This document shows positions 16,779 to 21,000 of a stretch of 35,717 bases of DNA, piece by piece. The first letter of the stretch is position 1. Every line of letters starts with the position of its first letter. Source of the stretch: Lachnospiraceae bacterium (GTDB lineage: Bacteria > Bacillota > Clostridia > Lachnospirales > Lachnospiraceae); assembly GCA_017539565.1 (NCBI GenBank), contig JAFYCS010000061.1, positions 1 through 35,717 on the forward strand, in the 5' to 3' direction. Both the position numbers and the translations under genes were made by a program. The notes below the pieces were generated by a model that saw only the letters and a list, made by a program, of their open reading frames with translations, searched no databases and was not told the DNA's origin.

Positions 16779-17390
16779 ATGGCAGATAATAAGAAAAAAC
16801 TTGACGGGTTGAAGATAGGGCGGTTTAAGCTGAGCTTTAATGCTCCGGTAGTGCTGTGCTTTGCTTTGATAAGCCTTGGAGTATTACTGCTGAGCTATAT
16901 TTCTTTCGGCAAGATAAGAGACTGGCTCTTCATGTCTTACCATGCGTCTAAGTTTACACTGCTTACGATATTGCGTTTCTTTACCCACGTGCTGGGACAT
17001 GTCGGCTGGGATCATTTTATAGGAAATATGGCATACCTGTTATTACTGGGACCCATGCTTGAAGAAAAATACGGTTCGGGGAAAGTCCTGGCGGTAATGA
17101 TGGTTACGGCTTTTGTGACTGCACTGATCAATTACCTGCTGTTCCCCCAGATCGCTATCTGCGGTGCCAGCGGAGTGGTATTTGCCATGATACTCATGAC
17201 GTCATTTACAAGTTTTAAAGAAGGCGAGATCCCCATTACCTTTGTGCTGGTGGCTATCATTTATCTTGGCAAGGAGATCTTTGACGGCATATTTATGCAG
17301 GATGACATCTCCAATCTTTCCCATATACTGGGAGGTATAGTAGGCGGAATATTCGGATACTTACTCAATATCAAAAGGAAAAGCAATTGA
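16779..17390 (+). CDS. Rhomboid family intramembrane serine protease
   Basis: The 203-residue membrane protein has about six helices. The rhomboid signature is clear: GHVGWDHFIGNMAYLLLLGPMLEEKYG in loop 1/helix 2, the catalytic serine in ICGASGVVF (Ser131 from the start used here) and the catalytic histidine in LSHILGGIVGG (His182). Rhomboids cleave substrates within or next to their membrane helix. I chose the ATG at 16779 because AGAGGA sits 8 nt upstream; the in-frame ATG at 16758 would add 7 residues but has a weak site. The stop overlaps the TTG start of the next gene, so the two are translationally coupled and the neighbour is a candidate substrate. Confidence 0.9.
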   Translation: MADNKKKLDGLKIGRFKLSFNAPVVLCFALISLGVLLLSYISFGKIRDWLFMSYHASKFTLLTILRFFTHVLGHVGWDHFIGNMAYLLLLGPMLEEKYGSGKVLAVMMVTAFVTALINYLLFPQIAICGASGVVFAMILMTSFTSFKEGEIPITFVLVAIIYLGKEIFDGIFMQDDISNLSHILGGIVGGIFGYLLNIKRKSN

Positions 17391-18568
17391 AGCTCAACGA
17401 AGATTTTGATGATGAATATGACGACCCGGTGAGTTTTAACAGTGGTCGTAAGAGTACGGTGGGGGCGGCTGCGATCGTAGCGCTGCTTTTTATCATGCTC
17501 GCCATAGCGATAGTTGTGATAGCAAATCAATCCGACAATATCAAAAAGCCGGGCACGTCACAAAGCGGAGCTAAAGGCACGCCTGCCGCGGCAAACGACT
17601 GGAATCCCGATCCCGATGCTACATCCGTGATAAGCGGCAGGACAGGCGTTGCCTCTGATCTGGACTTCTGGGATGCATATCCTACAAAGGGCGCGCCTAC
17701 ACTGGCACCTGCTTCGGATAACCAGGCGGCAACACCTACTCCCTGGGGCGGATCCGGTACAGAGGAAGCTGAAGAAGAGAAGGAAAAGCTTTCCGTATCC
17801 GAAGACGGACTGCATACACGTGTTGTATTACCCGACGGTACGGAAGAGTGGGTAGAGATCAATCCTTATCTGACAAGGAATAATTACGAGGCTTCCGGCT
17901 TTGTCTATCAGAAACCCTTCAAGAATTATTATGAGAACAACACAAAAAAGAGCTTTGTCGGGGTGGACATTTCCAAAGAAGAGGGCTATGTGGACTACAG
18001 GCAGTTAAAGCAGCAGGGCGTGGATTATGTCATGCTTCGTCTTGGACAGAGGGGATACTCTACGGGGGAGCTGTCTGTGGATGAAACCTTCGTGGATAAC
18101 TATAACCGCGCAAGGGAAGCGGAGCTGGATATAGGCGTTTATTTTGTGACTGCCGCCATAAGTACCGAGGAGGCCAAGGAAGAGGCGGATTTCTGTCTGC
18201 AGGTGCTGGTAGACAATGAGATGGCACTTAACTATCCGCTGGCGTTATCGACCATGCCTCTTGGCAGCGGAAAAGCCAGGACGGACGAGCTGGAAAAGAT
18301 GGCGCGTACAAATAATGCCATCACATTTATGAAAGCGGTGGAGAATGCGGGGCTGTTCTCAATGCTATATGGAGATAAAGCAACGCTGATAAAAAAATAC
18401 AGTCTGGGTTCACTTATCGGTTATGATATCTGGTATTCCGGACCGGAAGATATCCCTGATTATCCTTACCAGTTTGCTATGTGGCAGTATGACAAAGGAG
18501 CTTCGATCGAGGGGATAGGATCCGGCGCGCATCTGAATATGTGCTTTATAGACTACGCTATAAGATAG
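17387..18568 (+). CDS. Membrane-anchored GH25 (lysozyme)-like protein lacking catalytic acids
   Basis: The 393-residue protein has an acidic cytoplasmic N-terminus (residues 1-25), one membrane helix (about 26-46), a Pro/Ala/Thr linker to about residue 130, and a C-terminal GH25-like domain from about residue 190. GH25 landmarks are KSFVGVDISKEEGYVDY (Asp194 kept), VDYVMLRLGQRGY, LDIGVYFVTAA and FAMWQYDKGASIEG. The family's catalytic D-x-E after the fourth strand is replaced by S-T-M at residues 288-290 (context YPLALSTMPLGSG), and the late acidic residue is His-Leu-Asn. I infer a wall-binding or regulatory pseudoenzyme. Translation starts at TTG (17387), which overlaps the rhomboid stop, after AAAAGGAAAAG. 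Confidence 0.82.
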   Translation: MKLNEDFDDEYDDPVSFNSGRKSTVGAAAIVALLFIMLAIAIVVIANQSDNIKKPGTSQSGAKGTPAAANDWNPDPDATSVISGRTGVASDLDFWDAYPTKGAPTLAPASDNQAATPTPWGGSGTEEAEEEKEKLSVSEDGLHTRVVLPDGTEEWVEINPYLTRNNYEASGFVYQKPFKNYYENNTKKSFVGVDISKEEGYVDYRQLKQQGVDYVMLRLGQRGYSTGELSVDETFVDNYNRAREAELDIGVYFVTAAISTEEAKEEADFCLQVLVDNEMALNYPLALSTMPLGSGKARTDELEKMARTNNAITFMKAVENAGLFSMLYGDKATLIKKYSLGSLIGYDIWYSGPEDIPDYPYQFAMWQYDKGASIEGIGSGAHLNMCFIDYAIR

Positions 18569-18585: not shown

Positions 18586-19395
18586 TTAAACATTATCTTT
18601 GTTCAGGCAGCTGTAGTTCAGTATCTTTTCTGAGATCCTGACATATTCATAGATCTCCTGATATTCTTCGGCACTTAAATGCTCCAGATAGTTTTTGGTA
18701 TAATTTTTATCTACACCGTTTTCTTTAAGTATATCAACAGCCTTGTTGTAGGCAACAGCGGCTTCATCTTCAGTATCATAATCACCTATCTTGAAATTAC
18801 CGTTAACATGTATTCGGCTGCGATAATAAATAAGGCCGCGCTTAACTTCTTTTGTTACACCGACATAACGGTTGATTATTGTTATATTGGCGGCGCGGAA
18901 ATCCAGGTTATCACCGTTATTGAAAAGATAATCCCGGCCTTCGACCGCATAACTCCGTATGCCGTAACGGTTTAACAGATTGACCTGGAGGCCGTAATCT
19001 GCAGCAAAATAATGCTTTCCGCGGCGCATAATCTTATGTGAGCTGTAAAAGAAAAGCTCGTCGGCATCAAACTTAAGTATTTCTGAAGGGCTGAGATAAT
19101 ATAAGAACATCCTTCTCATGATATATATGGGATTGGAGATATAAATACCGTTATCGCGGAAGTTGATCAGACTGACCCATTTCTCGAAGGAAAGGGGGGA
19201 TGGTTTATAATCAAGTATCCCGAAGGTGTTATCCCGAAGCAGCAGACCGGCCTGTATATAAGCGCGGTGGGCATCGATATCGTTATCAAAGCCGCCTAAG
19301 CTTATATGCTTTCCCCTGTAGGTTATGGACGAGCGGAAATATGAAGAGCCGTCTTTTTTTGTAGCGGGATAAACCCCTGCACTGGTCTGTAACAT
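18586..19395 (-). CDS. AP2-like / HNH-like DNA-binding protein of unknown role, probably leaderless
   Basis: The 269-residue protein is built symmetrically. Residues 6-53 (GVYPATKKDGSSYFRSSITY, then RGKHISLGGFDNDIDAHRAY) and residues 177-226 (YVGVTKEVKRGLIYYRSRIH, then NGNFKIGDYDTEDEAAVAYN) both resemble the AP2/ERF DNA-binding domain: three strands, then an Ala-rich helix. Between them RDYLFNNGDNLDFRAANI (about residues 155-172) resembles the core of HNH homing-endonuclease proteins (NGNxLDNRxxNL), but the leading catalytic His is not evident. The start is the ATG at 19395: upstream in-frame GTG (19428) and ATG (19422) lie within the promoter and lack a ribosome binding site. A sigma-A promoter predicts transcription starting exactly at this ATG. 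It converges on the GH25-like gene with a 17-nt gap and no visible terminator. Confidence 0.7.
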   Translation of the reverse strand: MLQTSAGVYPATKKDGSSYFRSSITYRGKHISLGGFDNDIDAHRAYIQAGLLLRDNTFGILDYKPSPLSFEKWVSLINFRDNGIYISNPIYIMRRMFLYYLSPSEILKFDADELFFYSSHKIMRRGKHYFAADYGLQVNLLNRYGIRSYAVEGRDYLFNNGDNLDFRAANITIINRYVGVTKEVKRGLIYYRSRIHVNGNFKIGDYDTEDEAAVAYNKAVDILKENGVDKNYTKNYLEHLSAEEYQEIYEYVRISEKILNYSCLNKDNV

Positions 19396-19401
19396 GTAGA
19401 G

Positions 19402-19430
19402 AGTATAACAGAAGATAGACATTAACACAA
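19402..19430 (-). promoter_or_regulatory. Extended -10 promoter giving a leaderless transcript of the AP2-like gene
   Basis: On the minus strand TTGTGT (19430-19425) and TATACT (19407-19402) are separated by 17 nt, with TGT directly before the -10. Six bases separate the -10 from the ATG at 19395, so the predicted +1 is the A of the start codon. Confidence 0.7.
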
Positions 19431-19444
19431 ATTTCTGGTAAAAT
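19416..19444 (+). promoter_or_regulatory. Extended -10 promoter for thrC
   Basis: TAGACA (19416-19421) and TAAAAT (19439-19444) are 17 nt apart, each 5 of 6 to consensus, with TGG just before the -10. The predicted leader is about 29 nt. It interlocks with the minus-strand promoter at 19402-19430: each -35 sits in the other promoter's spacer. Confidence 0.75.
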
Positions 19445-19479: not shown

Positions 19480-21000
19480 ATGAGTATCTTATATCACAGT
19501 ACAAGGGACAATAATAAAAAGCTCACGGCTTCACAGGCTGTGCTGCAGGGATTGGCTGAAGACGGCGGCCTTTTTGTGCCGGACAGTCTTCCTGTGCTTG
19601 ACAAAAGCCTTGATGAGCTGAAGGAGATGGATTATAAAGGCGTAGCTTATGAAGTTATGAAGCTCTTTCTTACGGATTATACCGAAGAAGAGCTCAAGGG
19701 CTGCATTGAGCGCGCGTATGATGATAAATTTGATACTGCACAGATCGCACCCATTAAAGAAGCGGGCGGCGCATATTATCTTGAGCTGTTTCACGGTGCG
19801 ACAATCGCATTTAAGGATATGGCACTTTCCATACTGCCTCACCTTATGACCACCGCGGCTAAGAAAAATAATCTCAAAGAAGAGATCGTCATACTTACCG
19901 CAACAAGCGGTGATACAGGAAAGGCTGCTCTGGCAGGCTTTGCTGATGTGCCCGGTACCAGGATCGCTGTATTCTATCCCAAGAACGGTGTTTCCAAGGT
20001 TCAGGAACGCCAGATGGTTACCCAGAAGGGGAATAATGTACGCGTTATCGGCATCGAAGGCAATTTCGACGATGCACAGACAGGCGTAAAGAAGATGTTC
20101 AATGATGAGGCATTAAAGGCAGAACTTAAAAAGGAAGGCTTCGTGTTCTCATCCGCAAACTCAATAAACATCGGCCGTCTGGTCCCTCAGGTAGTTTACT
20201 ACGTATATGCATATACCCGTCTGTTAAAGGCAGGTACGATCAAGAGCGGCGAGAAGATAAACGTCTGCGTACCTACCGGAAACTTCGGAAATATCCTGGC
20301 AGCATATTATGCCAAGTGCGCAGGACTTCCCGTTAATAAACTGATCTGTGCTTCCAACTCAAACCGTGTGCTCTATGACTTCTTTAAGAGCGGCAGCTAT
20401 GACAAGCTGCATGAGATGGATGACAAGGGTGCTTTCAGTAAGGACAGGAGCTTTATCTTAACAGGTTCTCCTTCGATGGATATACTTATCTCCAGCAACT
20501 TAGAGCGCCTTATTTACCACATTGCGGGTGATGATGATAAAAAAGACAAAGCTCTTATGGACCAGCTTAATACAAAGGGAGCGTATGCGATCAGCGAAGA
20601 CATGAAGGCGCGTCTTGACGATTTCTTCGGCGGTTTTGCATCTGAGGAAGATACTGCATCAAAGATCGCCGGCCTGTATAAAGACTGCGGATATGTGATC
20701 GATCCACATACCGCTGTAGCCGGATTTGTATATGACGCTTATAAAAAGGAGACAGGTGATGAGACCAAGACGGTCATCGCATCCACGGCCAGCCCTTATA
20801 AGTTTGCAAAGACTGTTATGTGTGCGATAGATAAGAAATATTCCGATACCGATGATATGGTACTTATAGATGAGCTCAACAGCTTAAGCGGCGTGAAGAT
20901 CCCCCAGGCTATCGAAGATATACGATCCGCTCCGGTACTTCACGATATCGTTTGTGCTACAGATGACATGCCCGAAGAGGTGCGCAGATTTCTGAGGTGA
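19480..21000 (+). CDS. thrC: Threonine synthase
   Basis: This PLP enzyme converts O-phosphohomoserine to threonine. The 506-residue protein is the long bacterial form. It has the N-terminal LYHSTRDNNKKLTASQAVLQG region, the PLP lysine in GATIAFKDMALSILPHL, the TATSGDTGKAAL loop and VPTGNFGNILAAYYAK. The start is the ATG at 19480 behind AGGGAG (8 nt spacing); the in-frame ATG at 19456 has no site and lies in the leader. It leads an operon with the response regulator and aminopeptidase genes. No T-box or threonine attenuator is visible in the short leader. Confidence 0.95.
   Translation: MSILYHSTRDNNKKLTASQAVLQGLAEDGGLFVPDSLPVLDKSLDELKEMDYKGVAYEVMKLFLTDYTEEELKGCIERAYDDKFDTAQIAPIKEAGGAYYLELFHGATIAFKDMALSILPHLMTTAAKKNNLKEEIVILTATSGDTGKAALAGFADVPGTRIAVFYPKNGVSKVQERQMVTQKGNNVRVIGIEGNFDDAQTGVKKMFNDEALKAELKKEGFVFSSANSINIGRLVPQVVYYVYAYTRLLKAGTIKSGEKINVCVPTGNFGNILAAYYAKCAGLPVNKLICASNSNRVLYDFFKSGSYDKLHEMDDKGAFSKDRSFILTGSPSMDILISSNLERLIYHIAGDDDKKDKALMDQLNTKGAYAISEDMKARLDDFFGGFASEEDTASKIAGLYKDCGYVIDPHTAVAGFVYDAYKKETGDETKTVIASTASPYKFAKTVMCAIDKKYSDTDDMVLIDELNSLSGVKIPQAIEDIRSAPVLHDIVCATDDMPEEVRRFLR

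Follow-up and report, generated by a model that had tools for sequence, protein, structure and literature searches.

Gene and protein family

The subject of this analysis is a gene on the minus strand of a 35,717-nucleotide stretch of Lachnospiraceae DNA (contig JAFYCS010000061.1 of assembly GCA_017539565.1; the whole stretch is hereafter called the window), the product of which carries an AP2-like unit at each end and an HNH-like domain between them. Translation confirmed the open reading frame at 18586–19395 as real: it encodes 269 amino acids, with the stop codon at 18586–18588 and the ATG at 19395. This ATG occupies the same place in all seven closest relatives (L031–L037), and additional in-frame starts lie 5' of it in the window itself and in some relatives, such as L034. 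We consider it probable, at roughly 0.6, that the double-AP2 protein is an ancient, nuclease-dead HNH-AP2 homing endonuclease that has been retained as a DNA-binding protein of transcription regulation or DNA architecture.

Of 199 relatives, 80 were kept in the collection of related loci. The family alignment (A1) leaves out L001, which is identical to the window, as well as L013, L015, L017 and L018, because of a contig end, an internal stop or a start that was not found. Rows used in the other alignments were 36 of 106 (A4 and A5), 70 of 106 (A7), 35 of 73 hydrolases (A3) and 37 of 79 GH25 proteins (A6).

The two AP2 units

The original prediction, made from the DNA letters, had placed two AP2-like units at the ends of the protein, and both comparison and the structure prediction that it proposed bear this out. 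The units (approximately residues 6–55 and 176–227) match each other with an hhalign P-value of 7.2e-8, and the first matches the AP2 domain of canonical HNH-AP2 proteins at P 1.5e-7. In an AlphaFold2 model (predicted local distance difference test, pLDDT, 93), both ends adopt an AP2 fold, with the characteristic order of strands and helix present in each. Among the PHROGs, the query matches an HNH endonuclease (8.1e-12), the matched residues 176–250 corresponding to the second AP2 unit. A proposed Pfam check succeeded at the level of the family, single-member scans of 106 members detecting AP2 in 35 (best 4.6e-10) and HNH_3 in 44 (best 1.3e-3), and failed for the query protein by itself, which gave no Pfam match. 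Neither AP2 unit of the window's protein reaches the curated Pfam AP2 score (16.9 bits for the N-terminal and 15.3 bits for the C-terminal unit, with a cut-off of 33.3).

Positions 21, 23, 25, 30 and 32 of the N-terminal unit are nearly invariant across the family, whereas the second-unit positions aligned to 21, 23, 25 and 32 are variable (0.8 to 2.8 bits) and position 30 falls in a gap. In plant AP2 domains it is the same face of the sheet that contacts DNA. This difference between the units suggests that the first may read a site conserved across the family. As a sign of sequence-specific DNA binding and transcription control, the nearly invariant face is suggestive only; a role of the protein as a regulator is plausible. 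That it binds RNA or ribosomes instead of DNA seems unlikely, since the best matches of the AP2 units are DNA-binding plant AP2 domains and most of the viral relatives with a name are DNA endonucleases.

Bacterial AP2 domains had been described as normally single. The viral HNH protein L144 (L144:1001-1741), as read from its sequence, possesses two tandem C-terminal AP2 units together with a full HNH motif, so a double AP2 is not unique to the present family. Four Lachnospiraceae proteins detected with the same PHROG (L150, L151, L157 and L166) carry repeated C-x-C-D/T-C-G motifs ahead of an AP2-like end and seem to form a separate family with AP2.

The HNH-like centre and the loss of catalytic residues

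The HNH-like core that had been predicted between the units is found there as NNGDNLDFRAANI, which aligns with DHIN...LDNR..NL, the core sequence in HNH-AP2 enzymes; taken together with the second AP2 unit, it matches canonical HNH-AP2 proteins at P 3.9e-11. The order of domains, an HNH core directly followed by AP2, is that of HNH-AP2 homing endonucleases (PF13392 + PF00847), and the best fold matches of the central domain are viral proteins, the named ones being mostly HNH or homing endonucleases. Two points weigh against an HNH identity of the centre. The HNH ancestry of the centre is weak by sequence alone, and we base it on fold and domain order; and comparison of the centre with PDB structures speaks against it. 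Nonetheless, a fusion of two AP2 domains to either side of an unrelated domain that was never a nuclease, its HNH likeness being convergent, appears improbable to us. Apart from the fold matches to viral HNH proteins and the position of the core directly before the second AP2 unit, HNH_3 is the sole Pfam family that matched a large share of the centre segments (35 of 70, compared with 4 of 70 for the next family, the segments being mutually related and not independent).

Residues D66, H67, N79 and N88 are invariant in eight HNH-AP2 reference proteins, and we take them to be catalytic on the basis of the roles of their equivalents in I-HmuI. The combination of Asp-His and Asn is complete in all eight references and incomplete in 106 of 106 aligned family members. 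The position of H67 is occupied by phenylalanine (F158) in every member, in keeping with the predicted loss of the leading His, and that of D66 by Asp in just 5 of 106, while N79 has its counterpart in N170, retained in 106 of 106. Positions 170 and 182 are spaced by 13 residues throughout the family, at a place where L125 holds 17 extra residues including N88; the segment with the distal catalytic Asn is thus missing in 106 of 106. The centre is also the most conserved part of the protein, with a mean entropy of 0.97 bits (the two AP2 units have 1.38 and 1.47), and contains the invariant polar residues D155, N160, D165, R167 and N170. These invariant residues, and a shifted alignment in which D155-Y156 takes the place of Asp-His (residue 156 is Tyr in 85 and Phe in 21 of the 106), would fit a nuclease whose active site has been rearranged, but we regard continued cleavage as very unlikely because no member has His at 156 or 158 and all lack the segment of the distal ligand.

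Distribution, copy number and descent

A count of family members in Lachnospiraceae, as had been proposed, yielded matches in 119 of 299 sampled genomes, or 118 of 298 genera. Six genomes gave two matches, which are adjacent pieces in one open frame in three cases, pieces split over two contigs in two, and in the sixth a weak second match of 41 residues; consequently, none of the 119 family-positive genomes shows two full copies. In the class sample, 15 of 391 genomes matched, 13 of them Lachnospiraceae and two in which the match was short and lay in an ordinary HNH-AP2 or AP2 gene; in the phylum sample 4 of 299 did, each of them from Lachnospiraceae. The plasmid sample gave no matches, and full-length members outside Lachnospiraceae were found in none of the class, phylum and plasmid samples. 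Four matches came from phage records; two of these span the full length and carry no annotation. The gene is carried by two records labelled Bacteriophage sp., L230 (MT836856.1) and L231 (MT837267.1), the former of which also carries thrC at 76% identity and therefore looks like mislabelled bacterial DNA. In the viral contig L127 the gene lies at the contig end.

Judged by copy number, introns, inteins and phage or plasmid context, the family does not appear mobile: full copies are single, neighbours are conserved and plasmid matches are absent, and no phage genes were seen adjoining the gene in the window, all of which agrees with the stand-alone chromosomal gene originally described. The loss of the HNH residues in 106 of 106 members, the lack of plasmid matches and of phage genes beside it in the window, and the single-copy chromosomal retention together argue for domestication, as had been proposed. 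Least probable of the alternatives by our estimate is a mobile or defence gene, for which the origin of the family, the two full-length matches in phage-labelled records and one long match in a viral contig might speak, and against which stand the absence of a PADLOC match for the query and of any plasmid match, the conserved chromosomal neighbours and, for L230 only, the accompanying thrC. Pairwise distances within the family correlate with those of RpoB (r = 0.55, with 0 of 2000 permutations as high, in 28 of 30 genomes), but the two trees share just 1 of 25 splits, which limits vertical descent to a broad trend that is not proven in detail.

Neighbouring genes and upstream elements

The features of the locus are collected in Table 1.

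Table 1. Features of the double-AP2 locus, in positions of the window
Feature	Position	Strand	Remarks
Double-AP2 gene	18586..19395	-	269-aa protein with dead HNH-like centre; translation, common start, family alignment A1
N-terminal AP2 unit	19231..19380	-	residues 6-55; R21, S23, T25, H30 and S32 conserved in the sheet
Linker	19111..19230	-	residues 56-95; conserved K72, N78, R80, D81, N82
HNH-like centre	18871..19110	-	residues 96-175; F158 at catalytic His position, N170 kept, distal Asn segment missing
C-terminal AP2 unit	18715..18870	-	residues 176-227
-10 box	19402..19407	-	TATACT with TG before, 6 nucleotides before ATG, no Shine-Dalgarno; predicted leaderless transcript
Promoter-like site of thrC	19416..19444	+	TAGACA-17-TAAAAT, TG before -10; same short intergenic region
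GH25 lysozyme gene	17387..18568	+	convergent
Threonine synthase gene thrC	19480..21000	+	divergent; start 19456 in open reading frame list, likelier ATG 19480 after GGGAG

Three genes recur beside the family: a convergent GH25 lysozyme gene downstream (82 of 106 loci whose flank was long enough), an adjacent divergent gene for a cell-wall hydrolase of the Hydrolase_2 family (63 of 102) and divergent thrC upstream (49 of 61), fractions that are not family-wide rates since most loci were selected by their similarity to the query. In the window, GH25 and thrC are present and Hydrolase_2 is absent; the window's genome has only partial matches to the hydrolase elsewhere, at 36% and 28% identity. 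With a profile (A6) built from the GH25 genes adjoining the family, the full-length subtype, defined by a cut set by eye (at least 335 bits, aligned from profile position 56 or earlier), was found in 40 of 299 genomes among the matches listed, and 40 of 40 carry the double-AP2 family. The next matches, in family-negative genomes (G096 at 333 bits, G016 and G174), cover the catalytic domain only. This co-occurrence hints at a role connected with the cell wall and is confounded by shared ancestry. A sporulation role was rejected: SpoIVA was detected in 73 of 119 genomes with the family and in 119 of 180 without it (p 0.46), and a search of the window's genome gave no SpoIVA match.

Motif searches of upstream regions revealed no binding site or operator for the double-AP2 protein, and the k-mers enriched upstream of GH25 genes are not enriched upstream of the double-AP2 gene, with no motif common to both. 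The suggested regulation of the adjacent thrC fares poorly: thrC is a frequent neighbour, but no operator was found and the cell-wall hydrolase genes are conserved neighbours too, which leaves the link weak.

A conserved AAAAATATTTCT-type (GGAAAAATATTTCTGAATT-type) element lies between the double-AP2 gene and the divergent Hydrolase_2 gene in, for example, L060, L087 and L097. Where the hydrolase is present, a weight matrix at the 99% shuffle level recovered the element in 18 of 28 loci used for training and in 12 of 27 that were held out. It did so in 7 of 42 loci with no hydrolase call (some of which, such as L088, are possibly missed calls), and in none of seven scored members of the window's clade. 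Hydrolases were sought in 80 of the 180 family-negative genomes, and the best 30 loci were examined; the matrix found the element in 2 of 29 hydrolase upstream regions there (L200 is one; L201 scored 12.5 against 12.8), and a regular expression in 2 of 30 such loci (L200 and L201), compared with 15 of 73 family loci. As an operator of the double-AP2 protein the element was rejected, because it tracks the Hydrolase_2 gene and is present in two genomes that lack the family; we read it as a probable Hydrolase_2 promoter element.

A possible route from homing endonuclease to regulator

If the double-AP2 protein descends from an HNH-AP2 homing endonuclease, it would have lost the ability to cut DNA and would bind a defined site mainly via the N-terminal AP2 sheet, with rigid docking provided by the dead HNH module and a second clamp by the C-terminal AP2 unit, so as to act as a transcription regulator or a local DNA-architecture protein. 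As the GH25 and Hydrolase_2 neighbours both act on the cell wall, we guess that cell-wall hydrolase genes, such as the GH25 neighbour, would be the likeliest targets, which is the weakest step of the scheme. A more ambitious version, in which an old and largely vertical family of bacterial transcription factors arose from a domesticated homing endonuclease, kept the dead nuclease as its most constrained part and controls cell-wall hydrolases of Lachnospiraceae, is tentative, and we would not bet on it.

Relative to phage and bacterial HNH-AP2 homing endonucleases (such as L125, L131 and L144, known here from sequence), with which it shares the HNH core followed by AP2 and the AP2 signature, the family has an extra N-terminal AP2 unit, has lost the catalytic Asp-His and the distal Asn segment, and is single-copy and chromosomal. 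I-HmuI (PDB 1u3e), an active enzyme, differs from the double-AP2 protein in having no AP2. The nearest precedents are the CapR repressor and the origin that has been proposed for plant AP2 factors. An origin of plant AP2/ERF factors from HNH-AP2 endonucleases was proposed by Magnani et al. 2004, as related in passages of PMC7714060 and PMC10448857. The AP2 fold is common to these factors (WRI1, with two AP2 units, TEM1 and AtERF1) and to the present family, which in contrast is bacterial, retains a dead HNH-like domain between its units and has only a putative role in transcription. CapR, a phage-satellite protein that PMC10448857 describes as a repressor of capsid genes with an origin in T5orf172 homing endonucleases, likewise reuses the DNA-binding part of an endonuclease for regulation, a function still putative for the double-AP2 protein; it stems, however, from a different nuclease family and resides in a phage satellite.

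Should the proposed history be correct, bacteria would offer a counterpart to the origin proposed for plant AP2/ERF factors, one in which the dead nuclease domain is still present. The homing-endonuclease origin of AP2 transcription factors has so far rested on the comparison of distant end points, and an inactivated nuclease between two AP2 units would represent a living intermediate, in which one could test how a selfish enzyme becomes a regulator. It would also provide a major family of gut bacteria with a conserved, apparently unstudied DNA-binding protein; a search of the open-access literature recognised no description of the double-AP2 family.

A predicted leaderless transcript

The gene had been credited with a clean promoter of its own. 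A promoter box is indeed present, but its distance to the ATG implies a leaderless mRNA. The same arrangement, a -10 box 6 nucleotides before the ATG without a Shine-Dalgarno sequence, is found in 16 of 109 loci, namely the window (19396-19407), L003, L015, L031–L037, L049, L051, L053, L055, L083 and L095, the distance being 7 nucleotides in L033. Among the 39 loci without a Shine-Dalgarno sequence, 14 have the box at exactly 6 nucleotides, as compared with a mean of 0.6 per distance between 10 and 59 nucleotides. Leaderless genes are rare in one Lachnospiraceae species, according to PMC5171806. On the family tree, the leaderless state requires 8 changes for 15 of 106 tips (14.3 with shuffled tips), which indicates that it arose or was lost several times.
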